Origin: a virus
Length of the DNA stretch: 23,118 bases
Virus record (IMG/VR): IMGVR_UViG_3300027573_000121
Location: 1 to 23,118 of that record
Reading direction: 5' to 3' (one strand)
The position numbers were made by a program, and so were the translations under genes. Position 1 is the first letter of the stretch. The number at the start of each line of letters is the position of its first letter. This document shows, one piece after another, positions 3,896 to 22,558 of this stretch. The notes under the pieces were generated by a model. That model was not told where the DNA came from. It searched no databases and saw nothing but the letters and a program-made list of their open reading frames with translations.

Positions 3896-5061
3896 TGATA
3901 TTCCAGACCTCCCCACTATACGAGGCTAACCTGAACACCACAGCAGACGTGGTGGTAAACCAAGGCGGCACAAGCTCAGGCAAGACCTACAGCATAATGC
4001 AGGTACTGTTTACTATTGCCATGCAGGAAAATAACGCACTTATAACGGTAGTGGGGCAGGATTTCCCAAACTTAAAGGTAGGTGCACTCAGGGACGCACA
4101 GAACATTATTAGGGACAGTCCAGTACTACAGAGTGTCATAACCAAGGCCAACAAGAGCACCAGCACCTACGAGTTTGCCACGGGCAGCGTAATGGAGTTT
4201 ATGAGCTATGACGATTGGCAGGACGCAAAGAGTGGTAAGAGGGACTACTTGTTTATTAATGAGGCCAACGGCATACCCTATAACATGTACTGCGAGCTAG
4301 CCCTGAGGACACGCAAAAGGATATACATAGACTATAACCCAAATAGTGAGTTTTGGGTACACAGGGAGGTGCTAGGCAGGCCTACTGTGCAGCTCATAGT
4401 ATCTGACCACAGGCATAACCCTTTTCTGTCCCAAAAGACACGGGACAAAATAGAGGCACTAGCGGAGAGCGACACAGAGCTGTGGAGAGTGTACGCACGT
4501 GGACTGACAGGTAAGGTAGAGGGCTTAGTGTTTCGTAACTACGCAGCAGTACCAGCCCTACCAGACGGGGGCACATTTGTGGGCTATGGTATGGACTTTG
4601 GATTTACCAATGACCCCACCACCCTTGTGGAGGTATGGAAGCAAAACGGGGAGCTGTGGATTAATGAGTTAATCTATGAGACAGGCCTAACTAACCAAGA
4701 CATAAGCGAGCGCATGAAACTACTAGGCATCCCTCAGGGCAGGGAGATAACAGCAGACAGCGCAGAGCCTAAGAGCATAGAGGAGCTTAACAGGCTAGGC
4801 TGGAATGTACGGGGCGCTAACAAGGGGCAGGACAGCATACGTAATAGCATAGACATTCTAAAGCGGTATAAACTGAACCTGACACAGCGCAGCCATAACC
4901 TGAGGAGAGAGGTAGGTGGCTACAGGTGGAAGACAAATAAAAATGGCACACTAGAAAATGTGCCAGTAGATGCCAACAACCACACCATAGACGCTTTGAG
5001 GTACGTGGCTTTAAATAAGCTCTCAGAGAACGTGGGCAAGGGCAAGTATACAGTAGCCTAA
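3895..5061 (+). CDS. terL: Terminase large subunit
   Basis: The packaging motor and nuclease, 388 residues, of normal length for the PBSX/Terminase_3 type. Walker A is GGTSSGKT (24-31). Walker B is YLFINEAN (118-125) with Glu123 as catalytic carboxylate. A DYNPN motif (146-150) is probably the coupling/motif III region. The RNase H-like nuclease shows its acidic residues in GMDFGFTND (Asp234), TADSAEP (Asp288) and HTIDALRY (Asp366). The ATPase drives DNA into the prohead through the portal and the nuclease cuts genome ends. The start overlaps the small-subunit stop (TAATG). It lacks a portal gene next door: the portal is about 15.6 kb downstream. Confidence 0.96.
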   Translation: MIFQTSPLYEANLNTTADVVVNQGGTSSGKTYSIMQVLFTIAMQENNALITVVGQDFPNLKVGALRDAQNIIRDSPVLQSVITKANKSTSTYEFATGSVMEFMSYDDWQDAKSGKRDYLFINEANGIPYNMYCELALRTRKRIYIDYNPNSEFWVHREVLGRPTVQLIVSDHRHNPFLSQKTRDKIEALAESDTELWRVYARGLTGKVEGLVFRNYAAVPALPDGGTFVGYGMDFGFTNDPTTLVEVWKQNGELWINELIYETGLTNQDISERMKLLGIPQGREITADSAEPKSIEELNRLGWNVRGANKGQDSIRNSIDILKRYKLNLTQRSHNLRREVGGYRWKTNKNGTLENVPVDANNHTIDALRYVALNKLSENVGKGKYTVA

Positions 5062-5070
5062 ATAAGAACA

Positions 5071-5208
5071 ATGAGGAAGCTAATAGACAGATTTAATGAG
5101 GGCGCAGCCTTTATGGTGGGCATGGTAGCTGTAGCAGTTTTACTAGCAGCAGCAGTAGCCCTAGGCTGGCTACTGTCCGAAGTTATAGTATATCCTTTCA
5201 CCAGATAG
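5071..5208 (+). CDS. Single-pass small membrane protein
   Basis: A 45-residue frame (ATG 5071 to TAG 5206-5208) begins 9 nt after the large terminase stop. It has a basic, amphipathic start (MRKLIDRFNEG) and one long hydrophobic helix (about 14-38, rich in Val/Ala/Leu), so it should be an inner-membrane peptide. Size and topology would suit a small holin-like or spanin-like peptide, but no lysis enzyme is nearby. Its final 39 nt overlap, on the opposite strand, the end of the minus-strand gene at 5170-5367. Confidence 0.55.
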   Translation: MRKLIDRFNEGAAFMVGMVAVAVLLAAAVALGWLLSEVIVYPFTR

Positions 5209-5367
5209 CACCCTGAGGTAGTAAGCCTCAGCCTCCTCTAGTGTCTTAAAAGTCTTTGCAACCGGCTTACCGTTCTCGGTGTTAAGATAGTCCCACACGT
5301 GATAGCCCCACGTCTTTGTGTACTTTATTGCAGCCCCTTCTTTTTTACTTCCTTTTAGCGTAGTCAT
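5170..5367 (-). CDS. Small AP2/Arm-like domain protein (candidate)
   Basis: This 65-residue minus-strand protein has the pattern K-x-W-x-Y-H-V-W ... NGKPVAKTFKTLEEAEAYYL, which resembles the small AP2-like or Arm-type DNA-binding domains at the start of tyrosine recombinases (three strands and a helix). It could therefore be a small DNA-binding regulator, though this is a pattern match only. It lies 40 nt after the other minus-strand gene and has the leader CCCACAAAACAAACCACATG behind a G5/C5 hairpin. No separate promoter is seen, so it depends on the promoter at 5655-5687. It converges on the structural array, against the direction of all other genes. Confidence 0.65.
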   Translation of the reverse strand: MTTLKGSKKEGAAIKYTKTWGYHVWDYLNTENGKPVAKTFKTLEEAEAYYLRVLSGERIYYNFGQ

Positions 5368-5380
5368 GTGGTTTGTTTTG

Positions 5381-5400
5381 TGGGGGCTTTTACACCCCCG
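5381..5400 (-). ncRNA. Intercistronic hairpin before a minus-strand start
   Basis: GGGGG and CCCCC (5382-5386 with 5395-5399) form a stem with an 8-nt loop, 14 nt before the ATG at 5367 in the minus-strand mRNA. No U-tract follows; the next bases are ACAAAACAAACC, so a standard terminator is unlikely. A very similar arrangement precedes the gene at 17515. Confidence 0.5.
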
Positions 5401-5407
5401 TTTAAGT

Positions 5408-5626
5408 TTAGAATATCCAGCCGTTAGTGTCCAAAATCCTCTGTACTTGTTTCATTCCAAAAGCATGGCAAGTCATGGTATTTACATTTATCTTATGAGC
5501 ATAACTGGCCAAGTTAATAACGGTTATTTTGTTTGGGGTAACCCCTACTACTCTAAAGTTTCTAACCACGCCCTCTATCTCAGTTCTGAACTCCATTCCT
5601 GTTTTTATGTCTGTAGCTTTTTTCAT
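5408..5626 (-). CDS. Small beta-rich hypothetical protein
   Basis: The 72-residue protein starts KKATDIKTGMEFRTEIEGVV and continues with short alternating strands (FRVVGVTPNKITVINL), giving the impression of a small beta-barrel followed by a helix (MKQVQRILDTN). It is the first gene of a two-gene minus-strand unit with a strong host-type promoter and an A/C-only leader (AATAACACACAAACACACACAAA). I do not recognise the family. Its location inside late structural genes and its independent promoter suggest expression at another time than its neighbours. Confidence 0.7.
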   Translation of the reverse strand: MKKATDIKTGMEFRTEIEGVVRNFRVVGVTPNKITVINLASYAHKINVNTMTCHAFGMKQVQRILDTNGWIF

Positions 5627-5654
5627 TTTGTGTGTGTTTGTGTGTTATTGTATT

Positions 5655-5725
5655 GCAAATATATACCGGCCAAAATTACTATCCAAATTTATTTCAAATT
5701 ATTTTTTAAAATACTTTCCACGTGG
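5655..5725 (-). promoter_or_regulatory. Bacteroidota-type promoter with upstream AT block and CCACGTGG
   Basis: On the minus strand, TATATTTGC (5663-5655) is the -7 element and TTTG (5687-5684) the -33, with a 20-nt spacer. Upstream lie a run of A/T with a second TTTG and the palindrome CCACGTGG (5718-5725). The layout matches the promoter at 15834-15905, which faces the other way. Confidence 0.8.
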
Positions 5726-5771
5726 GTAGCTAACGCCCCTGTCTACTGAACGAGGGCAAGGGCTAGCACGG

Positions 5772-5795
5772 AAAGCCTCAAAGCATATTTAGGGG
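5772..5795 (+). promoter_or_regulatory. Candidate restart element AAAGCATATTTAGGGG (copy 1)
   Basis: The 16-mer AAAGCATATTTAGGGG (5780-5795), with AAAGCC just upstream, occurs again at 20227-20242. Both precede the first structural gene after an inserted block. YATATTTA resembles a -7 element with G changed to A, but no -33 match is visible here. Confidence 0.4.
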
Positions 5796-5809
5796 AAACA
5801 CACTACCAA

Positions 5810-6073
5810 ATGAGTACAATTATTAACACCATTGCCAGCGCAGTAGTTGGCCTAGCCACAGGGGTAATAGTGACAGACGGGGCACACAAGACCCATACCA
5901 CCTATGCAGAGCCAGTAAAGACTATCCAGATACCGCAGCCTACTATTATACTAGATGCCAGCGCAGCAGGCAGGAATAGGGGCAAGTTTGGCACACAGGA
6001 GAGTAAGAGAAAGCAGCTAAGGCAGAACCCCTCCTTTGCACGGAGTAAGAAATGCACCACTAAAATAAAGTGA
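5810..6073 (+). CDS. Small hypothetical protein with hydrophobic N-terminus
   Basis: The 87-residue product starts with a hydrophobic segment (about 4-22, IINTIASAVVGLATGVIVT), which could be a membrane anchor or an uncleaved signal. The middle is rich in Pro/Thr, and the C-terminal half is strongly basic (NRGKFGTQESKRKQLRQ, then SKKCTTKIK). The stop overlaps the next ATG (TGATG), so it is coupled to the 50-residue gene that follows. It is the first plus-strand gene after the minus-strand pair. No family recognised. Confidence 0.6.
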   Translation: MSTIINTIASAVVGLATGVIVTDGAHKTHTTYAEPVKTIQIPQPTIILDASAAGRNRGKFGTQESKRKQLRQNPSFARSKKCTTKIK

Positions 6074-8781: not shown

Positions 8782-10884
8782 ATGACATGGGAGATATATG
8801 TAGAAGGGCAGAAAATAGACCCACCAGAGGGCACAAGTGCTCAAATAACATTTAACATAGATGACATTAGGGACTTTGCGGCACGTAACACGGCATTTAG
8901 CAAGACCATTATACTACCTGCCACAGCCACAAATAAGAAAGTATTTGGCCATGTGTTTGACGCTGGCAGCAGTAATATAGTGGACGATGAAAACCCTAAC
9001 GTAGGGTACGACTACAACGCTAGCAAGGCAGCTAGCTGCATTATGTTTATAGACCAGATGCAGGTATTTAAGGGTGTTATTCGTATTATGGACATAGTGG
9101 TGGACGGCAGCTACATGGAGTTTGAGGTGGCAGTATTTGGGGAGCTAGGTGGCTTAATCAGTAACATAGCAGACAAGAAACTGGAGCAGCTAGATTTTGC
9201 AGCCTATAACCACACATTTAACTTAGGCAACCTCACAGGCTCATGGTCAGAGGATTTTTTATTTCCCTCAGGCACGGGGTACTACTACCCACACATGGAC
9301 ATGGGGTACAGCACGGACAAAATCATTTTTCCTATTGAGAGCTTTAGGCCAGCCCTGCACGTGAGGGAGTATGTGGACAAGATGCTAGACCAAGCAGGCT
9401 ACACGTTTGCCTCAGACTTCATGGACACGGATTACTTTAAACGGCTTATTATACCCTTTAACGGGGCTTATCCTGCCAAGGTGGTACAGACAGCTTTTCA
9501 GGCTAGCATGGCAACCTACACCAGCCCTAGTGGTGCAGGCAGTACTGGATTTTTCCAGCAAATACCCATTAATGACGTAGTAGGCACTAACTATTTTAGG
9601 TTTGTGGCTGAGGCTGGAGCTGTCCCTGAGCACATTGTGTGGGACAGGGCAGATACGGTTAAGATGAAAGCTAAATTCACAGCAAACTGGACAAGAGCCT
9701 TAGGCACAGCGTTTAACCTCAAACTAACCATAGTGAGAGTGCCAAATGGCAACACAGCCATACCAAATGAGGAAATAGTGTTATATGAGGAGGTTGTGAC
9801 AGGCACAAGTGGCACAATAAACGTAGAGCTGCCTATAGACGTGGAGCAGGGTGATTGGTATAACCTGTGGAGTAACTGCACGGTTATAGACGGTAGTCAA
9901 ACCTTCACCTTTACCCCGTATAACTTTTACTTTGTAGGCTCTCCCGATATTGCTATCCCTCTTACGTTTAATGATAGCGTAGATATGAATAGCTGCATAC
10001 CTAAAAATGTATTTCAGCTAGACCTCCTCAAGTGGCTTATTAAAATGTTTAACCTGTATATCTACGAAGACCCTGACACGGTAGGGCACGTACTTATAAA
10101 GCCCTACGTGGACTTTTACGGTACTACTGTGGAGGATTGGGACGGCAAGCTAGACAGGAGCAAGCCATTTAAGTACACACCCATGGGAGAGATAAACAGC
10201 AGGAGCTATGAGTATACCTACAAAGATGACAAGGACTACTACAACGAGCTGTACAAGACAAAATACCAAGAGATATATGGCAGCAGGTTCTATGACACAG
10301 GGCTGGACTTTGTAAAGGACAAGAACAAGGTAGAGGTAGGCTTTAGCCCCTCCCCGCTAGTGCAGTACAGTAATAGTGACAGGGTGCAGGTAGCTGTGTA
10401 CAAAAAGAAAGAGGACGGCACAGAGGAGAGAATGGCACACGGGCTGCGTATACTGTTTAGGTCTGACGCACCACAGCCCTGCCAAGATTGGACTATTAGC
10501 TACATATCTGGAGGCACACCCCTGACTAACCTCATGGACTATGGCTATGCTTATGCAGGCCACGTGGACAGCGTAGACGCTCTAGCTAATGACTTAAATT
10601 TCGGTGTACCTCAGGAGCTATACTTTACAATAATTGCAGGAGACCTGAGCGCAAACCTGTTTAATGTTTTTTGGAGCAGGTACATAGGGGAGGTAAGCGA
10701 CAAGGACAGCAAGCTATTAAAGGGAAACTTTAAGCTAACTCCGCAAGATATTATGACTCTTGACTTTAGCAAACCTAAATATATTAATGGCCAGCTCTGG
10801 AGGCTAAACAAAATAATAGACTGGAGCACGGACGGTATAGAGAGTACAAAATGTGAGTTATTAAAAGTAATTGACTTAGTATAA
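8782..10884 (+). CDS. Large tail protein, 700 residues
   Basis: The longest protein in the window. Its N-terminal part includes DFAARNTAFSKTIILPATAT (about 31-50) followed by NKKVFGHVFDA, a motif typical of a large tail protein in Bacteroidota siphophages and prophages. The middle is beta-sandwich-like; the C-terminal third (KYTPMGEINSRSYEYTYKDD and YYNELY) resembles the region common to these proteins before the tape measure. It probably forms part of the tail tip or central hub that contacts the host surface. No enzymatic motif is visible. The two large tail genes precede the tape measure rather than following it, the reverse of lambda order. Confidence 0.6.
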   Translation: MTWEIYVEGQKIDPPEGTSAQITFNIDDIRDFAARNTAFSKTIILPATATNKKVFGHVFDAGSSNIVDDENPNVGYDYNASKAASCIMFIDQMQVFKGVIRIMDIVVDGSYMEFEVAVFGELGGLISNIADKKLEQLDFAAYNHTFNLGNLTGSWSEDFLFPSGTGYYYPHMDMGYSTDKIIFPIESFRPALHVREYVDKMLDQAGYTFASDFMDTDYFKRLIIPFNGAYPAKVVQTAFQASMATYTSPSGAGSTGFFQQIPINDVVGTNYFRFVAEAGAVPEHIVWDRADTVKMKAKFTANWTRALGTAFNLKLTIVRVPNGNTAIPNEEIVLYEEVVTGTSGTINVELPIDVEQGDWYNLWSNCTVIDGSQTFTFTPYNFYFVGSPDIAIPLTFNDSVDMNSCIPKNVFQLDLLKWLIKMFNLYIYEDPDTVGHVLIKPYVDFYGTTVEDWDGKLDRSKPFKYTPMGEINSRSYEYTYKDDKDYYNELYKTKYQEIYGSRFYDTGLDFVKDKNKVEVGFSPSPLVQYSNSDRVQVAVYKKKEDGTEERMAHGLRILFRSDAPQPCQDWTISYISGGTPLTNLMDYGYAYAGHVDSVDALANDLNFGVPQELYFTIIAGDLSANLFNVFWSRYIGEVSDKDSKLLKGNFKLTPQDIMTLDFSKPKYINGQLWRLNKIIDWSTDGIESTKCELLKVIDLV

Positions 10885-15791: not shown

Positions 15792-15822
15792 AGAGGGAGA
15801 CCCCGTAGGTCTCTCTTTTTTT
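15792..15822 (+). terminator. Intrinsic terminator
   Basis: AGGGAGACC (15794-15802) pairs with GGTCTCTCT (15808-15816), loop CCGTA, then a run of T. It ends the head transcript just before the cassette promoter. Its GTAGGTCTC core resembles the hairpin at 1939-1961. Confidence 0.85.
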
Positions 15823-15833
15823 ATGCCCCTACT

Positions 15834-15905
15834 CCACGTGGCAAAAGAAAGTTTAAAAATAGTTTGCAAAAAGTTTGGTAGTAATGCAAACAGTACTATA
15901 TTTGC
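15834..15905 (+). promoter_or_regulatory. Extended Bacteroidota-type promoter with CCACGTGG
   Basis: TTTG (15874-15877), a 19-nt spacer and TATATTTGC (15897-15905) form the core. A block of TTTAAAAATAGTTTGC (15852-15867) lies upstream, and CCACGTGG (15834-15841) lies 32 nt before the -33. The block recurs at 18522 and 19208. Confidence 0.85.
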
Positions 15906-15947
15906 ATTACAGAAACACACACACAAACACAAACAAACACTTTTTTT

Positions 15948-17195
15948 ATGACTACCTCTACTTTTACTCAGACACAAGTACAAGCCCTGAAACAAGCCTA
16001 TGAGACTTTTGTAGCCAATGGCACTACACGCACATTTATGGCAACTATGCAGGATGCACTAGGGGCTGAGTGGTTTAGTGCACGTGGTATCTCCGAAAAG
16101 TTCGGGAAGGACTACAGGTATTTTTTGAAAGACTTTTTTGCTACAGAGGGGCAGTATGCTATATCTAACTACTTCAGCTCTACCCTTATTGGGTATGCTA
16201 TAGAGGCTCTACAGGCAAAGCTGGAGGTAGTAAAGGTAGCTCCAGTAGCTCAGGTTACAAAGGTAGAGGGCGGCAAGAATGACCTCCTTACAGCTACTAT
16301 GCAAATGTTACTGCCTATTCAGCAGATGATAGACACCAGAGTGACTGACTACCTAGAGAATGAGAGCGGATTACTTGCCCACGTAGACGAGAAGATAAAA
16401 GCAGAGGCTCAAAAGTTAGTACCTACTATGATAACCATAGGGGAAAGGCCTACAGTAACTATGACAGGCAAGCTGCACATGGCTTTTGAGAAAGCTCTTA
16501 GACGTGCAAACACACTCAAACAAATTTATGTTTCTGGAGAGGCTGGCACAGGTAAGACTACCCTAGCAAGCCAAATAGCTACAGCTATGGGCTTAGAGTT
16601 TGCACACATAAGCTGTACCATGGGCATGTCAGAGGCACACCTTTTGGGACGCATGGACGCACACGGTAACTACCTCTCCTCAGATTTTGTACGTATCTAT
16701 GAGAACGGGGGAGTATTTCTGCTAGACGAGGTAGACGCAGCAGACAGCAATACCCTGCTTATTATTAACTCAGCTCTGGCTAACGGACACATGGCTGTGC
16801 CTAACAGGGTAAAAGCTCCACGTGCAGCAAGACATAAAGATTTTATTTGTGTGGCAGCAGCTAACACATGGGGCTTTGGCTCAAACGACTTTGTAGGCAG
16901 GAACGTACTGGACGCAGCATTTTTAGACAGGTTTGCTATGGGTAAGCTGACCATTAGCTATGACACCAAGCTGGAGCAGGATATTAGTAAAGACTTTCCA
17001 GAAATGGCTATAGCTATTCACGCTATCCGTGCAAACGTGGTTTCTAACAGGATTAAGAGAGCTGTAAGCACTAGGGCTATAGTTGATGGGGTAAAGCTCA
17101 GAATGGCAGGAGACAGCCACGCAGAGGTGCTGGAGACGTTTATGACAGGCTGGACACCAGAGGAGAAAAAGAAAGCCATGCAGGGGGTTAAATAA
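15948..17195 (+). CDS. MoxR/CbbQ-type AAA+ ATPase
   Basis: The 415-residue protein has a helical N-terminal region (about 1-160) of unknown fold and an AAA+ core. Walker A is GEAGTGKT (197-204), Walker B is GVFLLDEVD (255-263), sensor 1 lies in AAANTWG (303-309), and a DRF arginine finger is near 327-329. The segment GMSEAHLLGRMDAHGNY and the use of ANGHM before the sensor are features of the MoxR/CbbQ/CobS type, which remodel or load metal into partner proteins together with VWA-domain proteins. The gene at 17515 is the apparent partner. It has its own promoter and an A/C-only leader. Partner and substrate are inferred; ATPase identity is firm. Confidence 0.9.
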   Translation: MTTSTFTQTQVQALKQAYETFVANGTTRTFMATMQDALGAEWFSARGISEKFGKDYRYFLKDFFATEGQYAISNYFSSTLIGYAIEALQAKLEVVKVAPVAQVTKVEGGKNDLLTATMQMLLPIQQMIDTRVTDYLENESGLLAHVDEKIKAEAQKLVPTMITIGERPTVTMTGKLHMAFEKALRRANTLKQIYVSGEAGTGKTTLASQIATAMGLEFAHISCTMGMSEAHLLGRMDAHGNYLSSDFVRIYENGGVFLLDEVDAADSNTLLIINSALANGHMAVPNRVKAPRAARHKDFICVAAANTWGFGSNDFVGRNVLDAAFLDRFAMGKLTISYDTKLEQDISKDFPEMAIAIHAIRANVVSNRIKRAVSTRAIVDGVKLRMAGDSHAEVLETFMTGWTPEEKKKAMQGVK

Positions 17196-17234
17196 CCCCT
17201 CCCTAAAACTTTTTTAAAAATACTTTGAATAAAG

Positions 17235-17266
17235 TTTGGTGGTAAAATACTTTCACCTATATTTGC
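17235..17266 (+). promoter_or_regulatory. Bacteroidota-type promoter
   Basis: TTTG (17235-17238), 19-nt spacer, TATATTTGC (17258-17266). An upstream block TTTAAAAATACTTTGAATAA resembles that of the other cassette promoters. The leader to ATG 17283 should be about 12 nt (ACAAACAAACACA). Confidence 0.85.
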
Positions 17267-17282
17267 AATACAAACAAACACA

Positions 17283-17474
17283 ATGACACAGACAAACACC
17301 CCGACAAATAACCCCTACATTGGCTGGACATTAGCAAACCTGACAGTAAGGCTAGCTAAAGAGACAGCGTGGTACAATGACATGCACAAGAGTAATAAAC
17401 TGTCAGCCTCTGGTAAGTCAATAAGGAGAGATATAAAGCAGATTAAGGAGGCAATACAGTTAAAAAGTAAATAA
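17283..17474 (+). CDS. Small helical protein between the ATPase and VWA-like genes
   Basis: This 63-residue protein has a Thr/Asn-rich start (TQTNTPTNNPYIGWT), a helix (LANLTVRLAKETAWYNDMHKSN) and a basic C-terminal helix (IRRDIKQIKEAIQLKSK). The gene has a strong promoter of its own and precedes the VWA-like gene, which has none, so the two are probably one transcript. A helper for the ATPase/VWA-like pair is possible from position only; no family recognised. Confidence 0.75.
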   Translation: MTQTNTPTNNPYIGWTLANLTVRLAKETAWYNDMHKSNKLSASGKSIRRDIKQIKEAIQLKSK

Positions 17475-17480
17475 CCCACA

Positions 17481-17500
17481 GGGGAGGGTAACACCTCCCC
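17481..17500 (+). ncRNA. Intercistronic hairpin before the VWA-like gene
   Basis: GGGGAGG pairs with CCTCCCC (loop GTAACA) 14 nt before ATG 17515. The following ACAAAATAAACC contains no U-tract, so it is not a usual terminator. The arrangement and the sequence CCCACAAAATAAACCACATG match that at minus 5366-5385 with one difference. Confidence 0.7.
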
Positions 17501-17514
17501 ACAAAATAAACCAC

Positions 17515-18462
17515 ATGCAAAACGTAAATTTAACCGGCTGGAAAGAGTGGACTAGAAAGCCTGTAAAAAAAGAGGAGCTTATTAACTGGACAGCTTACGA
17601 GAAAGGAAACAGCAGGCTGGTTATGTGGGACAGTTCAGCAGACTTTATAGAGTGCTGGAGGCAGAACGGGGAGAATAAGAGCTGGCAGCATCCGCTCTCA
17701 GGCAGGGACAGCAGGAGCTTGTGGGCATACGGTGAAGACTACAAGACGCTAGAGAACACGCTGGAGGCTCTGGAGAATGGGCAGATACTAGACAAGTACA
17801 TAGATAAAGTAGGGGAGGCAAAGAGCGAACTATTTAAGCATTGCCCACAGCTAGAGAACCTGCAAACTGTAGCCATGAGTAAGCGCAGGAGACGCAAGTA
17901 CGCAGAGGAGGGGGCAGAGCTGGATATAGACAGGTATATGTGTGCAGACCCCGCTATGTGGGTATCCTGCCCTCCCTCAGAGATACGCAAGAGGAGCGCA
18001 CGTATCTACATAGACGTATGGGGCACGTGTGGTACTACCTTTCAGACCTTCATAAACAGCATAGTGTTTGCAGCAGCTATGGCAGACATAATAGAGGCAG
18101 CAGGCATAACGCTGGAGATAGTGGTAGGGACTACAGCTACAAACTTTTGGGAGGGCAAAGGAGCATGTACTATAGCCTTTCCAGTAAAGCAGGCAAACGA
18201 GCCTATGGACATTAGCAAGCTCCTTACATTTGGCATCTCAGGCTTTCTACGTGGCCTGTGCTTTGACACCTACCACGGAATAGACGCAGAAAATTGGGAC
18301 AGTTCATGCGGTACGTTAATCTATGGGGGGCTAGAGGGAGCTGCCAGCTTAGAACCATTGGAGGCAGACATAGTGATGAAGGGAGGAGATGCTTACACAA
18401 ACCCTGACAAGGTGCAAATGATAGTGGGAAAGATAAAAACTTTACTTAATATAACTGATTAA
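17515..18462 (+). CDS. VWA-like (CobT-like) partner of the AAA+ ATPase
   Basis: The 315-residue protein has a basic spacer (SKRRRRKYA, 122-130) and a C-terminal domain (about 160-310) with a Rossmann/VWA layout: strand and loop ARIYIDVWGTCG (162-173), helix INSIVFAAAMADIIEAAG (180-197), strand TLEIVVGT, then strand ACTIAFPV and helix MDISKLLTFGISGFLRGLCF. This matches phage CobT-like or DUF7192-type proteins that accompany MoxR/CobS-like ATPases. The MIDAS metal site is degenerate: D-x-S-x-S is D167-V-W-G-T, with only the Asp retained. The partner ATPase is 320 nt upstream with a small gene between. Function unknown; metal loading or capsid/tail remodelling are possibilities. Confidence 0.6.
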   Translation: MQNVNLTGWKEWTRKPVKKEELINWTAYEKGNSRLVMWDSSADFIECWRQNGENKSWQHPLSGRDSRSLWAYGEDYKTLENTLEALENGQILDKYIDKVGEAKSELFKHCPQLENLQTVAMSKRRRRKYAEEGAELDIDRYMCADPAMWVSCPPSEIRKRSARIYIDVWGTCGTTFQTFINSIVFAAAMADIIEAAGITLEIVVGTTATNFWEGKGACTIAFPVKQANEPMDISKLLTFGISGFLRGLCFDTYHGIDAENWDSSCGTLIYGGLEGAASLEPLEADIVMKGGDAYTNPDKVQMIVGKIKTLLNITD

Positions 18463-18522: not shown

Positions 18523-18571
18523 AAATAGTTTGCAAAAAGTTTGGTGATAACATACAAAGCACTATATTTGC
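18522..18571 (+). promoter_or_regulatory. Extended Bacteroidota-type promoter
   Basis: TTTG (18540-18543), 19-nt spacer, TATATTTGC (18563-18571). The upstream block TTTAAATAGTTTGCAAAAAG is nearly identical to that at 15852. Leader to ATG 18590 is A/C-rich. Confidence 0.85.
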
Positions 18572-18589
18572 AATACAAACAAACACAGT

Positions 18590-18883
18590 ATGAAAAAAAT
18601 CACCCTTACCACAGTCAAGAGTTTCTTAAAGAAAAACAAAGGAGCTATCTACATTAACGTAAAGTCTAGCTTTGACGGCATGACAGACGGATGCGAAATG
18701 CAGACTAAAGGCTTTAAACTGGCGCAGGCGGCAGAGCAGAACTTTTCAGACACCTTAGGCATAGAGGGTGCATGGTTCGTGGGTAGCAGCCGTGACTACT
18801 TTACAGCCTACGAGTGTGGACAGTTTACCGGAATTGAGGTCTATAACTCTTGCGGAAAGTTCATCTTAGCCGTTCAAAAGTAA
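18590..18883 (+). CDS. Small hypothetical protein
   Basis: The 97-residue protein opens with a basic helix (MKKITLTTVKSFLKKN) and continues in short strands (GAIYINVKSSFDGMTDGC and GIEGAWFVGSSRDYFTAYE). I associate similar openings with small uncharacterised proteins in Bacteroidota phages and plasmids. It has three Cys residues and no membrane segment. It has its own strong promoter and terminator-like hairpin, so it is an independent unit. Function unknown. Confidence 0.7.
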   Translation: MKKITLTTVKSFLKKNKGAIYINVKSSFDGMTDGCEMQTKGFKLAQAAEQNFSDTLGIEGAWFVGSSRDYFTAYECGQFTGIEVYNSCGKFILAVQK

Positions 18884-19273: not shown

Positions 19274-19702
19274 ATGACACACACAAACACACACAGCAGT
19301 AATACTTGCCCTAAATGCGGAGGAGCTGGTACTTTAGACTGGACTAGCCAAGACGGTGGAGTATGTTACAAATGTGAGGGTAAGGGCTATATAGGCGAAA
19401 TGCCTGCAGGCTTTGTAAAGTGCAGCACTAAGGAAATTAGAGAGGCAGCTAAGGAGCTGGTAAAGGTGGGTGTTTATAACTTAAAACAAAAAGACAGCAC
19501 GTTTAGGTGTTACCCAACCTATGAAATGGATGCAGATACCATTAAGGAGCTTGTCGAGAGGGGTAAGGTGTTTAGATTCAAGTATAGTAATTATTTTTTA
19601 ACTGTGCCAGACATGAGCATAACCTTTGGCGGAGATAGTGAGTACTGCTACAACTTAATAGTTGGTGGGGAGTTTTTGGAAATTAAACCAATAAAAAAGT
19701 AA
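19274..19702 (+). CDS. DnaJ-type zinc-finger protein
   Basis: The 142-residue protein has a DnaJ-like CxxCxGxG pair near the start: CPKCGGAG (12-19) and CYKCEGKG (31-38), one zinc-binding module. The rest (about 48-142) is an unassigned alpha/beta domain with helix STKEIREAAKELVKVG. There is no J domain, so it is not a co-chaperone of DnaK in the normal sense. Small phage proteins with this module are common and may bind nucleic acid or unfolded proteins. The start codon lies a few bases from the predicted transcription start, so the message may be leaderless. Confidence 0.7.
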   Translation: MTHTNTHSSNTCPKCGGAGTLDWTSQDGGVCYKCEGKGYIGEMPAGFVKCSTKEIREAAKELVKVGVYNLKQKDSTFRCYPTYEMDADTIKELVERGKVFRFKYSNYFLTVPDMSITFGGDSEYCYNLIVGGEFLEIKPIKK

Positions 19703-20164: not shown

Positions 20165-20196
20165 GCCCTCCCCTATCCATGGGAGGGCATTCTTTT
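20165..20196 (+). terminator. Strong intrinsic terminator at the cassette end
   Basis: GCCCTCCC (20165-20172) pairs with GGGAGGGC (20181-20188), loop CTATCCAT, then ATTCTTTT. It closes the 15834-20127 cassette. Confidence 0.85.
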
Positions 20197-20244: not shown

Positions 20245-20646
20245 ATGATTCAGCTAACCAAGGGCACTACAGTAGACGTAATAGTGACGGCAACCGAGAA
20301 GGTGACGCTTACAGCACCATACTTTCTGTGGGTATTTACAAACCCTGAGACTGATAACACAGTTACGTGGATAGTCTCCAGCGTAGATGACCAAAGCCCT
20401 TTCCCTGAGCGGTACAATGACTTTAACATGGACGTGGACGTGGTGTTTTTTATGCAACCTGAGGGGCAATGGCACTACAAGATTTACGAGCAGGATAATG
20501 ACACCAACACAGACCCCACGCTAGCTACTACCCTTGTAGAGCAGGGTATGCTCATTTTAAACAAGGCAGCAGCCAGCATACGAACTATTAAAAAGTTTGC
20601 ACCTACAGCAGCCACAATAAAAGTATTTAATGAAACCACAGAGTAA
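20245..20646 (+). CDS. Small virion protein candidate
   Basis: The 133-residue protein is beta-rich: TKGTTVDVIVTATEKVTLTAPYF, then VVFFMQPEGQWHYKIYEQD (about 66-84) and a C-terminal VEQGMLILNKAA. The pattern of a Gly-Gln-W-x-Y-x-x-Y/F strand followed by a VE-x-G segment is familiar from small structural proteins in Bacteroidota phages near tail and head genes. It overlaps the portal gene by 17 nt. It probably forms part of the virion or an assembly factor, exact role unknown. Confidence 0.55.
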   Translation: MIQLTKGTTVDVIVTATEKVTLTAPYFLWVFTNPETDNTVTWIVSSVDDQSPFPERYNDFNMDVDVVFFMQPEGQWHYKIYEQDNDTNTDPTLATTLVEQGMLILNKAAASIRTIKKFAPTAATIKVFNETTE

Positions 20647-22558
20647 AACAGACACAGTACATGTGCTCCAGTTTGCCGCTAAGGATATACCAGAGTACAA
20701 GGAGACCACTAGCGGGGCACGTAAGATAGTAAACTACGGGGCAGATAATAAGTTTCCAGACTACCTGCTAGAGCTTTACAGCAAGTCTCCAAAGCACGGA
20801 GCTATAGTAAAAGGCAAGGCCATGTACATAGCTGGCTCAGGCTTTGAGTTTAAGGACAAGCAAAGCGAGGGGCTTAATGAGAGCCTAAAGACAGTAAACA
20901 GGTACGGGGAAAGCCTTAACAAGGTAGGCAAAAAGTGCATACTTGATAATGAGATTTTCTATGGCTTTTACCTCCAGATTATCTATGGCAAGGGAGGCAA
21001 GGTATCGGACGTGCTCCACGTGGACTACAACAAGATACGGAGCAATGCAGATAACAGCATTTTCTATTATAAAGAAGACTGGAAAAAGACCACAGGAGAG
21101 GTAACCCCTTACCCCTGCTTTAATCCTGACAAGCCCACAGGTACACAGATACTATACTACAAAGGCTACAGGGCTGGCATACAGACCTACACTATACCTG
21201 ACTACCTGAATAGTCAAATGTACATTGAAAGTGACATTTTAGTAGCTGGCCATGTGCTGAACAATGCAAATAGCGGATTTACGGGCAGCAAAATGATTTC
21301 CTTCAATGACGGAGAGCCTAGCCCTGATGAGGCAAGAACCATAGAGACTAAGCTAAACGACAAGTTTACTGGCAGCAAAGGCAGCAAGCTGGTGGTGAAC
21401 TTTTCAGCAAACCCTAACGTAGCCCCCACGGTGCTGGACTTAGGGGCTAGCGATATGTCAAAGGAGAACTTTACCCCTGTAGATGAGCTTATAAGTCAGA
21501 ATATTTTTACAGGACACCAGATTGTTAGCCCTATGCTTTTTGGGGTACGCGTGGAGGGGCAGCTAGGTGGACGTAATGAAATGAGGGAGGCCTACGAGAT
21601 ATTTAAAAACACTTACATAAATAACAGGCAGCAAGAGGTAGAGGAGGTGTTTAATACAGTACTAGCCCTTAACGGCCTGCCTGAGGTAAGAATTGTGCCA
21701 GTAGAGCCAATAGGCTACGAGTTCAGCGAGCAGACCATAGTACAGGTAGCTCCTAAGGCCTATATACTTGAAAAATTGGGCATTAACCCAAATGACTATG
21801 CAGAGGACGATGTAGAACCAGAGGCCAAGGACGAGGCTAAGAATGCCCCTGAGCAGGTAGAGGAGGACGAGGACACGGAAGGAGAGGACGTAAAGAGCAA
21901 GACTAAAAAAAAAGAAAAGTTTAGCAGTCTAGATGACGAACTAGCCCTTACCTTATTTTCTCAGGTAGGGGAGGACAGTAAAGGCTATTTTAGGTATAGC
22001 AGCAAGAAGGTTTGTTTTCATTCAGACGAGGAGTGCAGGGCAGGAGAGATACAGGGCTACAGGCAGGCATTTGCTGAGATAACCATACTAGAGGCTAACA
22101 TTATTGACCTGCTAAAGAAGGACAAGAGAGCTACCCCTGAGGTTATAGCAAAAGCTCTGGAGGTCTCCCCTGAGCTAGTGCAGAGAGTGTTAAGGACGCT
22201 CTCAGACAAGGGAATGATAAAAGTAGGCACGGAGAAAGTGGGAGACGAGAAGACCACCACAAGGGACGTAACAGAGGGAGGCAAGGAGGCTATAAGCAAA
22301 AGGACTCCAACGAGCACGGAGGTATTTATTAAATACAGCTACGAAGGTCCTGAGGATGAACGTAATAGAGATTTTTGCGCCCACATGCTAGACCTAGATA
22401 AGATATACTCACGTGTAGAAATTGAGCAGATAAGCCAAAGGCTAGGCTACTCAGTTTGGGAGCGCAGAGGGGGATTTTACACTAATTCAGTAACAGGGGA
22501 AACCACACCCTACTGCCGCCACTATTGGATGCAGCACATAGTTTTAAAAAGAAAGTAA
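20630..22558 (+). CDS. Portal protein with long C-terminal extension
   Basis: The 642-residue protein has a portal-type core (about 1-370): YGADNKFPDYLLELYSKSP (36-54), KHGAIVKGKAMYIAGSGF (55-72), VLHVDYNKIR (128-137) and the clip/stem-like region with SPMLFGVRVEGQLGGRNEM (300-318). After this comes an acidic and Lys-rich linker (about 391-430), a helical segment, a winged-helix-like section (about 486-545), and a terminal domain with DFCAHMLDLDKIYSR (581-595), RRGGFYTNSV and PYCRHYWMQHIVLK (627-640). That last domain resembles Mu gpF/SPP1 gp7-like head-morphogenesis fusions with paired Cys/His. Portals form the dodecameric ring where DNA enters. The portal call is strong, the extension call moderate. 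Confidence 0.78.
   Translation: MKPQSKTDTVHVLQFAAKDIPEYKETTSGARKIVNYGADNKFPDYLLELYSKSPKHGAIVKGKAMYIAGSGFEFKDKQSEGLNESLKTVNRYGESLNKVGKKCILDNEIFYGFYLQIIYGKGGKVSDVLHVDYNKIRSNADNSIFYYKEDWKKTTGEVTPYPCFNPDKPTGTQILYYKGYRAGIQTYTIPDYLNSQMYIESDILVAGHVLNNANSGFTGSKMISFNDGEPSPDEARTIETKLNDKFTGSKGSKLVVNFSANPNVAPTVLDLGASDMSKENFTPVDELISQNIFTGHQIVSPMLFGVRVEGQLGGRNEMREAYEIFKNTYINNRQQEVEEVFNTVLALNGLPEVRIVPVEPIGYEFSEQTIVQVAPKAYILEKLGINPNDYAEDDVEPEAKDEAKNAPEQVEEDEDTEGEDVKSKTKKKEKFSSLDDELALTLFSQVGEDSKGYFRYSSKKVCFHSDEECRAGEIQGYRQAFAEITILEANIIDLLKKDKRATPEVIAKALEVSPELVQRVLRTLSDKGMIKVGTEKVGDEKTTTRDVTEGGKEAISKRTPTSTEVFIKYSYEGPEDERNRDFCAHMLDLDKIYSRVEIEQISQRLGYSVWERRGGFYTNSVTGETTPYCRHYWMQHIVLKRK

Follow-up and report, generated by a model that had tools for sequence, protein, structure and literature searches.

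Within the 23,118-nucleotide stretch of viral DNA analysed here (the window: positions 1 to 23,118 of IMG/VR virus record IMGVR_UViG_3300027573_000121), a gene for a MoxR/NorQ-type AAA+ ATPase (15948–17195) is followed by a gene for a protein of the family DUF7192 (17515–18462), which is a VWA-type protein related to the VWA domains of NorD and CobT. The two genes are paired in a wide range of phages. Throughout its family the DUF7192 protein retains a motif that aligns with the fingertip of NorD, and it has lost the metal-ion-dependent adhesion site (MIDAS). We consider it likely, with a probability of roughly two in three, that the pair is a remodelling motor of the NorQ–NorD or CobS–CobT kind, in which DUF7192 is a MIDAS-free adaptor and which acts on a host or phage complex.

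An ATPase of the MoxR clade

Three open reading frames (ORFs) lie in this part of the window, at 15948–17195 (415 residues), 17283–17474 (63 residues) and 17515–18462 (315 residues). They confirm the ATPase, small protein and VWA-like protein recognized from the sequence alone in a first-pass annotation, whose region began at position 15834 and takes in the promoter region ahead of the ATPase; the ATPase and the VWA-like protein are full-length and have strong family matches, and NCBIfam gave no relevant family. The features of the ATPase are as follows.

15948–17195, plus strand: MoxR/NorQ-type AAA+ ATPase, 415 residues, PHROG_249 (AAA_5, E 3.4e-19; phrog_249, E 1.2e-50)
16536–16559, plus strand: Walker A, GEAGTGKT, residues 197–204 (G197, G200, G202 and K203 invariant in 60 relatives)
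16629–16682, plus strand: pore-loop/helix-2-insert region, SEAHLLGRMDAHGNYLSS, residues 228–245 (G234 in 60/60; aligned with the GRxLL motif of the NorQ helix-2 insert)
16716–16736, plus strand: Walker B, FLLDEVD, residues 257–263 (D260, E261 and D263 invariant in 60 relatives)
16863–16931, plus strand: candidate sensor-1 residue Asn306 to candidate Arg finger Arg328 (N306, R328 and F329 invariant in 60 relatives; roles assigned by analogy with other AAA+ proteins)

The residue numbers given earlier for the two Walker motifs fit a start at the ATG at 15948. Membership of the MoxR clade is indicated by an AAA_5 match above the cut-off and by an AAA+ core that carries both Walker motifs and the candidate sensor-1 and Arg-finger residues. 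The helix-2 insert is represented by the invariant G234 and a partial GRxLL motif, and when the model of the ATPase was compared with the PDB, the best folds were NorQ and CbbQ (E 3e-11). The closest solved relatives by sequence are Midasin, CbbQ, CobS and NorQ. Residues 1–160, which the first-pass annotation could not recognize, indeed gave no Pfam match; in the structure model they are helical and partly of low confidence.

DUF7192 retains the finger motif without the MIDAS

The features of the partner protein are as follows.

17515–18462, plus strand: DUF7192 VWA-type adaptor, 315 residues (PF23822, E 4.7e-13; AlphaFold2 mean predicted local distance difference test score 82.8)
17896–17976, plus strand: predicted AAA-coupling finger, residues 128–154, with the core EEGAELDIDRYMCAD (alignment to the NorD fingertip)
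18013–18027, plus strand: MIDAS remnant DVWGT, residues 167–171 (DxSxS/T intact in 1/67 relatives)
18187–18189, plus strand: invariant Lys225 (K in 66 of 66 letters; aligns with a Lys found in 6/6 NorD-type references)
18247–18252, plus strand: Leu245–Arg246, the MIDAS Thr replaced and the adjacent Arg kept (aligned to NorD STR)

The score against PF23822 is 49.5 bits, compared with a curated cut-off of 27. A sequence search of DUF7192 against the PDB gave no meaningful match. When the AlphaFold2 model was searched with Foldseek, the only significant PDB matches were NorD VWA chains from NorQ–NorD complexes, four of which top the list (best E 4.3e-4, probability 1.00); in a library of viral models, other DUF7192 proteins rank first, and phage CobT and VWA proteins next. 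Profile–profile comparison gave a probability of 92.8 against NorD-type and 85.5 against CobT-type proteins, the references being sequences retrieved from the database, and at most 0.5 for reversed, column-shuffled and unrelated controls; each probability was computed pairwise against a small reference alignment and is not to be read as a database E-value. Fold and profile thus agree with the earlier annotation, which had called the protein VWA-like, and the pair CobS/CobT-like.

In NorD, the finger precedes the MIDAS strand, enters the NorQ pore and touches the helix-2 insert of NorQ (PMC13036017, PMC9976466). In the profile alignment, EEGAELDIDRYMCAD (window residues 131–145) falls on the NorD motif EDGDEIDINAAV, directly ahead of the MIDAS strand. 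This finger is well conserved: Gly133 is found in 64 of 67 sequences, Asp137 and Trp149 in 49 each, and Gly at position 144, where the window protein has Ala, in 63; Trp149 and Gly133 rank among the best conserved columns. Arg246 (64/66) aligns with the Arg that directly follows the MIDAS Thr of NorD.

The full MIDAS, DxSxS with a separate Thr and a last Asp, is absent. Its first position is Asn in 35 and Asp in 19 of the 67 relatives; position 245, which corresponds to the separate Thr, is Phe in 29, Tyr in 22, Leu in 6 and His in 3, and never Thr; and the last Asp has no alignable counterpart in DUF7192. The window protein has lost the first Ser, the Thr at position 245 and the last Asp and has retained Thr171, so that within its DVWGT strand only the first Ser is missing. 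The first-pass annotation had described this strand as a reduced MIDAS without its Ser and Thr: the site is degenerate and the Ser is gone, while Thr171 is still present. Nor is the loss a peculiarity of this protein. It marks the family and not the window phage, because DxSxS/T is intact in only one of the 67 relatives and the Thr of the second site in none.

NorD proteins with mutated MIDAS still bind NorQ and no longer activate the target (PMC9976466). The simplest reading of the alignment is that coupling to the motor would be retained in DUF7192 and that gripping of the target would have moved elsewhere in the protein.

The Mycobacterium phage LeBron has one such ATPase (gp128), an adjacent DUF7192 protein (gp127) and a second DUF7192 protein (gp120) about 3 kb further on; the two DUF7192 genes lie on the minus strand of locus L126, at 5021–5863 and 8825–9697. 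Many LeBron-related phages likewise show two DUF7192 places. In LeBron, to whose single genome the comparison is confined, the two proteins have 21 of 27 finger residues in common (78%) and 76 of 242 elsewhere (31%), the finger being their most similar stretch. Such a pattern is expected if both paralogues dock on one ring and differ in target.

The two genes are paired across phages

Relatives were gathered by an ATPase-alignment search, which yielded 80 viral contigs, because tblastn of the window VWA protein against phage records returned no match. A DUF7192-like ORF lies on the ATPase strand in 76 of the 80, while each of the remaining four contigs stops at the ATPase or shortly behind it; the co-occurrence that the earlier annotation had anticipated is therefore seen in 76/76 testable viral contigs. 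After dereplication, 66 partner proteins remained, and every one of them matches Pfam DUF7192 in its own right. Seventy-five of the pairs lie within about 320 bp. Most gaps between the genes fall in the range −98 to +131 bp; larger ones are seen in locus L041 (180 bp), the window phage (319 bp) and locus L031 (4,042 bp). In L031 (6838–10879), and in no other locus, an insert of about 4 kb separates the two genes. Since the pair genes overlap or adjoin in most of the 76 loci, the 63-residue ORF that separates them in the window does not belong to the conserved pair.

Isolates with the pair include phages of Acinetobacter, Sinorhizobium, Tunturiibacter, Enterococcus, Staphylococcus, Mycobacterium, Listeria and Lactobacillus; in the Enterococcus phage, DUF7192 lies upstream. 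Separate searches of Staphylococcus phages found 236 records by the ATPase and 236 by DUF7192, while Mycobacterium records numbered 88 by DUF7192 and 82 by the ATPase. A scan of genome contigs with strict patterns gave at least five pair loci in 84,980 species.

Two records show irregularities within the ATPase gene itself. In Staphylococcus phage K (locus L113, 2748–3867), unlike Stab22, the ATPase region is annotated as two ORFs, either because the gene is interrupted or because the sequence contains an error. In the phiM5 record (locus L007, 1349–1546), a small ORF in another frame within the ATPase gene is annotated as detected in the particle proteome.

The pair lies in an inserted cassette

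The surroundings of the pair in the window contain the following features.

15792–15818, plus strand: terminator-like hairpin upstream of the cassette (weak alone)
15874–15904, plus strand: Bacteroidota-type promoter TTTG-N19-TATATTTG ahead of the ATPase (repeat family D2)
17235–17265, plus strand: second promoter copy, ahead of the 63-residue ORF and the VWA gene (pattern match)
17283–17474, plus strand: 63-residue ORF between the pair genes, outside the conserved pair
18540–18570, plus strand: third promoter copy, ahead of a 97-residue gene at 18590–18883 (pattern match)
20165–20188, plus strand: terminator-like hairpin downstream of the cassette (7 of 8 pairs G-C)

The three promoter copies match TTTG-N19-TATATTTG, the known Bacteroidota promoter form, perfectly. 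Across the window the promoter pattern has four matches where 0.4 are expected, and none of 100 shuffled sequences reaches four; the fourth, TTTG-N20-TATATTTG at 5656–5687 on the minus strand, lies near a region without a convincing gene. The hairpins are weak evidence alone, because 10 were found against 7.9 expected. In one relative (locus L104) the order protease, scaffold, capsid, 15240, 20245, portal is identical, and about 240 bp replaces the 4.5 kb of the window. Both pair genes are absent from five relatives that a search with the major capsid protein had identified; these are contigs of 20–39 kb, and the searches for the pair genes were partly without a positive control. Given its own promoters, the gene order in L104 and the five capsid relatives, the pair is a cargo cassette, an insertion with the head genes on one side and the portal gene on the other that does not belong to the head module. 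The first-pass annotation had placed it in the structural region; the position stands, and a structural role is not supported, the cassette being independently promoted and missing from the five relatives.

The window matches an IMG/VR contig of 39,675 bp, of which it forms the right-hand end. The remainder of this contig carries a tyrosine integrase, a divergent helix-turn-helix gene, an amidase-like gene and a RecT protein, so that the window phage, taken to be a phage of Bacteroidota, is probably temperate. Elsewhere in the window, a further cassette gene (19274–19702) encodes two CxxC motifs and weakly resembles a DnaJ-type zinc finger, and the portal-like protein (20630–22558, 642 residues) has a winged-helix match at residues 490–531 and a Cys-containing C-terminus past the portal region. 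A match of the 63-residue ORF to Sp-CxC was weak (E 0.01, below the cut-off) and was rejected.

Three roles have been put forward for related phage pairs (virion assembly, conflict and cobalamin synthesis), and each fits the present pair poorly. A place between head genes and portal gene would suit a virion-assembly chaperone, for which the group 2.2 jumbo phages offer a published precedent: their MoxR–vWA–metallopeptidase pair, likewise a phage MoxR ATPase with a VWA co-chaperone, has been proposed to play this role by analogy with a two-tailed archaeal virus (PMC7824862). We regard this as unlikely for the window pair. The cassette carries its own promoters, and the pair is dispensable for this head type because the capsid gene also occurs, without the pair, in the five relatives. 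In contrast to the jumbo-phage protein with its N-terminal metallopeptidase, DUF7192 shows no peptidase domain or family among the matches listed for 66 members, and its context consists mostly of non-virion genes. In isolates the pair usually lies among early or DNA-metabolism genes, and it is near genes of DNA or nucleotide metabolism in phage 3-521, the crAss-like cr125_1, Tunturi_4, phiM5 and vB_CECAV_04; in RHph_X2_24 it lies between head and tail genes, yet on the opposite strand.

Cargo position, own promoters and a probably temperate phage would suit a defence or superinfection-exclusion gene pair, and the known conflict systems include MoxR–vWA pairs, some of them without the VWA aspartates (PMC7159879). 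Kinship with these systems is nevertheless quite improbable. PADLOC returned weak generic ATPase matches and no specific one, and the pair is common in lytic phages. VMAP-type ternary systems, moreover, require a conserved third gene, whereas no family recurs in more than 10 of the 80 loci within 6 kb of the pair.

Relation to NorQ–NorD and to viral CobS–CobT

Among known systems, NorQ–NorD is the closest. It too sets a MoxR/CbbQ-type ATPase beside a VWA partner; it is the best structural match of both window proteins; and its fingertip motif aligns, as do the invariant Lys and the Arg that follows the MIDAS Thr. It differs in that DUF7192 is without all three MIDAS elements, has about half the length of NorD and has another N-terminal region. 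NorQ–NorD inserts iron into nitric oxide reductase (PMC9976466, PMC13036017), to which the window pair has no link. A two-gene 'metalloprotein chaperonin' of a MoxR protein and a second subunit has also been described as orf66/orf63 of Bacillus phage 0305phi8-36 (PMC2147016).

The viral CobS–CobT pairs of cyanophages, haloarchaeal viruses and phage-plasmids (PMC8651126) share a related ATPase and a VWA partner with the window pair, and are called cobalamin genes. The proposal, based on the wide distribution of viral cobST, is that they form an auxiliary metabolic pair that joins host CobN and raises cobalamin synthesis (PMC8651126). For the window pair, PHROG_249 bears the name 'porphyrin biosynthesis', and the DUF7192 profile resembles CobT, as given above; the names of the families to which curated or clustered models assign the two window proteins (PHROG_249, PHROG_1909 and PF23822) carry no mechanism. 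The CobT-type proteins of cyanophage S-PM2 and of phage-plasmids are 660–740 residues long, keep the MIDAS intact and are encoded upstream of the ATPase, whereas DUF7192 proteins are of about 300 residues, MIDAS-free and usually encoded downstream. Two plasmids of ~108–116 kb with integrase genes, from Klebsiella (locus L123, 2094–5431) and Acinetobacter (locus L124, 2055–5451), carry, upstream of an AAA ATPase gene, a long CobT-type VWA gene whose MIDAS is intact, and are likely phage-plasmids.

Transfer of the cobalamin role to DUF7192 pairs is very unlikely. The cyanophage partner is not a DUF7192 protein, and DxSxS is kept in CobT of the cobaltochelatase CobNST and in those long phage CobT-type proteins that were examined, but not in DUF7192. 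CobN was not found in 30 pair-bearing viral contigs, which is weak evidence where contigs are fragments, or in five bacterial assemblies from the genome scan (four of them metagenome-assembled genomes, and one with a weak ATPase match). The pair is also found in phages of Staphylococcus, Lactobacillus and Enterococcus, hosts that are not known to possess this aerobic cobalamin pathway.

Weighing the motor reading

Several observations weigh against a motor with a VWA-type adaptor. The DUF7192 model superposes poorly on NorD as a whole (TM-score 0.28–0.30, root-mean-square deviation 9.3), and its VWA core appears in the model to be reduced, without the last strands; a Rossmann-like VWA fold is nevertheless indicated by the Foldseek matches to NorD VWA and phage VWA proteins. 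None of the 66 DUF7192 members directly matches a Pfam VWA model. On the side of the ATPase, the GR motif of the helix-2 insert is only partly kept, with R235 in 26 of 60 relatives, and docking of the finger in the pore is predicted from alignment. The window protein, which has Asp167 and Thr171, may bind metal weakly. As to the pairing, all searches except the Staphylococcus and Mycobacterium checks began from the ATPase, and the correlation of distances in the two families, which speaks for the pairing (r 0.87; 0/2000 permutations as high), is uncorrected for shared phage ancestry. The poor superposition, the lack of a direct VWA match and an extreme divergence (median identity 18%) would also suit a DUF7192 that is not a VWA protein, the ATPase acting alone or with it by another mechanism, but this is hardly credible when two independent methods rank the NorD/CobT VWA best with clean controls.

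A probable remodelling motor with a MIDAS-free adaptor

We therefore favour the remodelling motor. By analogy with its family, the ATPase would form a ring. DUF7192 would dock on this ring through its finger, which, to judge from the aligned and conserved fingertip motif, would enter the pore, and would transmit ATP-driven movement to a target. It would not grip this target, as NorD does, by a metal-bound MIDAS, because the site is gone family-wide; recognition would most likely lie in the conserved N-terminal third of DUF7192 together with the variable N-terminal region of the ATPase. Its most likely task is to remodel a protein complex, of the host or of the phage, in the course of takeover or lysogeny, and not to build the virion.

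Phage MoxR–VWA pairs are already known, and both families are in databases. What appears new is that DUF7192 can be assigned to the VWA adaptors of the NorD/CobT type, with the finger retained and the MIDAS missing throughout the family, together with its near-obligate pairing with the ATPase and the case of two adaptors; DUF7192 was not found in the literature searched, and may be mentioned elsewhere. About 890 sequenced phage records carry such an ATPase. Its gene often goes by the label 'porphyrin biosynthesis' or CobS and is then interpreted as one for vitamin B12. That a large share of these ATPases is paired with a MIDAS-free NorD-like adaptor argues against the B12 label, and the pairing sets the DUF7192 lineage apart from the long, MIDAS-bearing viral CobT.

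A bolder proposal, which we put forward as doubtful, is that DUF7192 proteins are interchangeable, metal-independent substrate adaptors for an AAA+ motor of the phage's own: one motor and one shared finger, with specificity supplied by the remainder of the adaptor. Some phages, LeBron among them, would then carry two adaptors for one motor so as to act on two or more targets in the course of takeover. If true, this would be a phage counterpart of the multi-adaptor unfoldases, in a MoxR–VWA branch that works without a MIDAS. The search for targets now has residues to start from (the finger, Lys225, Arg246 and Walker B) and a tractable phage in LeBron of Mycobacterium smegmatis, with its one motor and two adaptors. 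The contact between MIDAS and target has been held central to MoxR–VWA machines; the data presented here suggest that it is dispensable in a whole branch of them.

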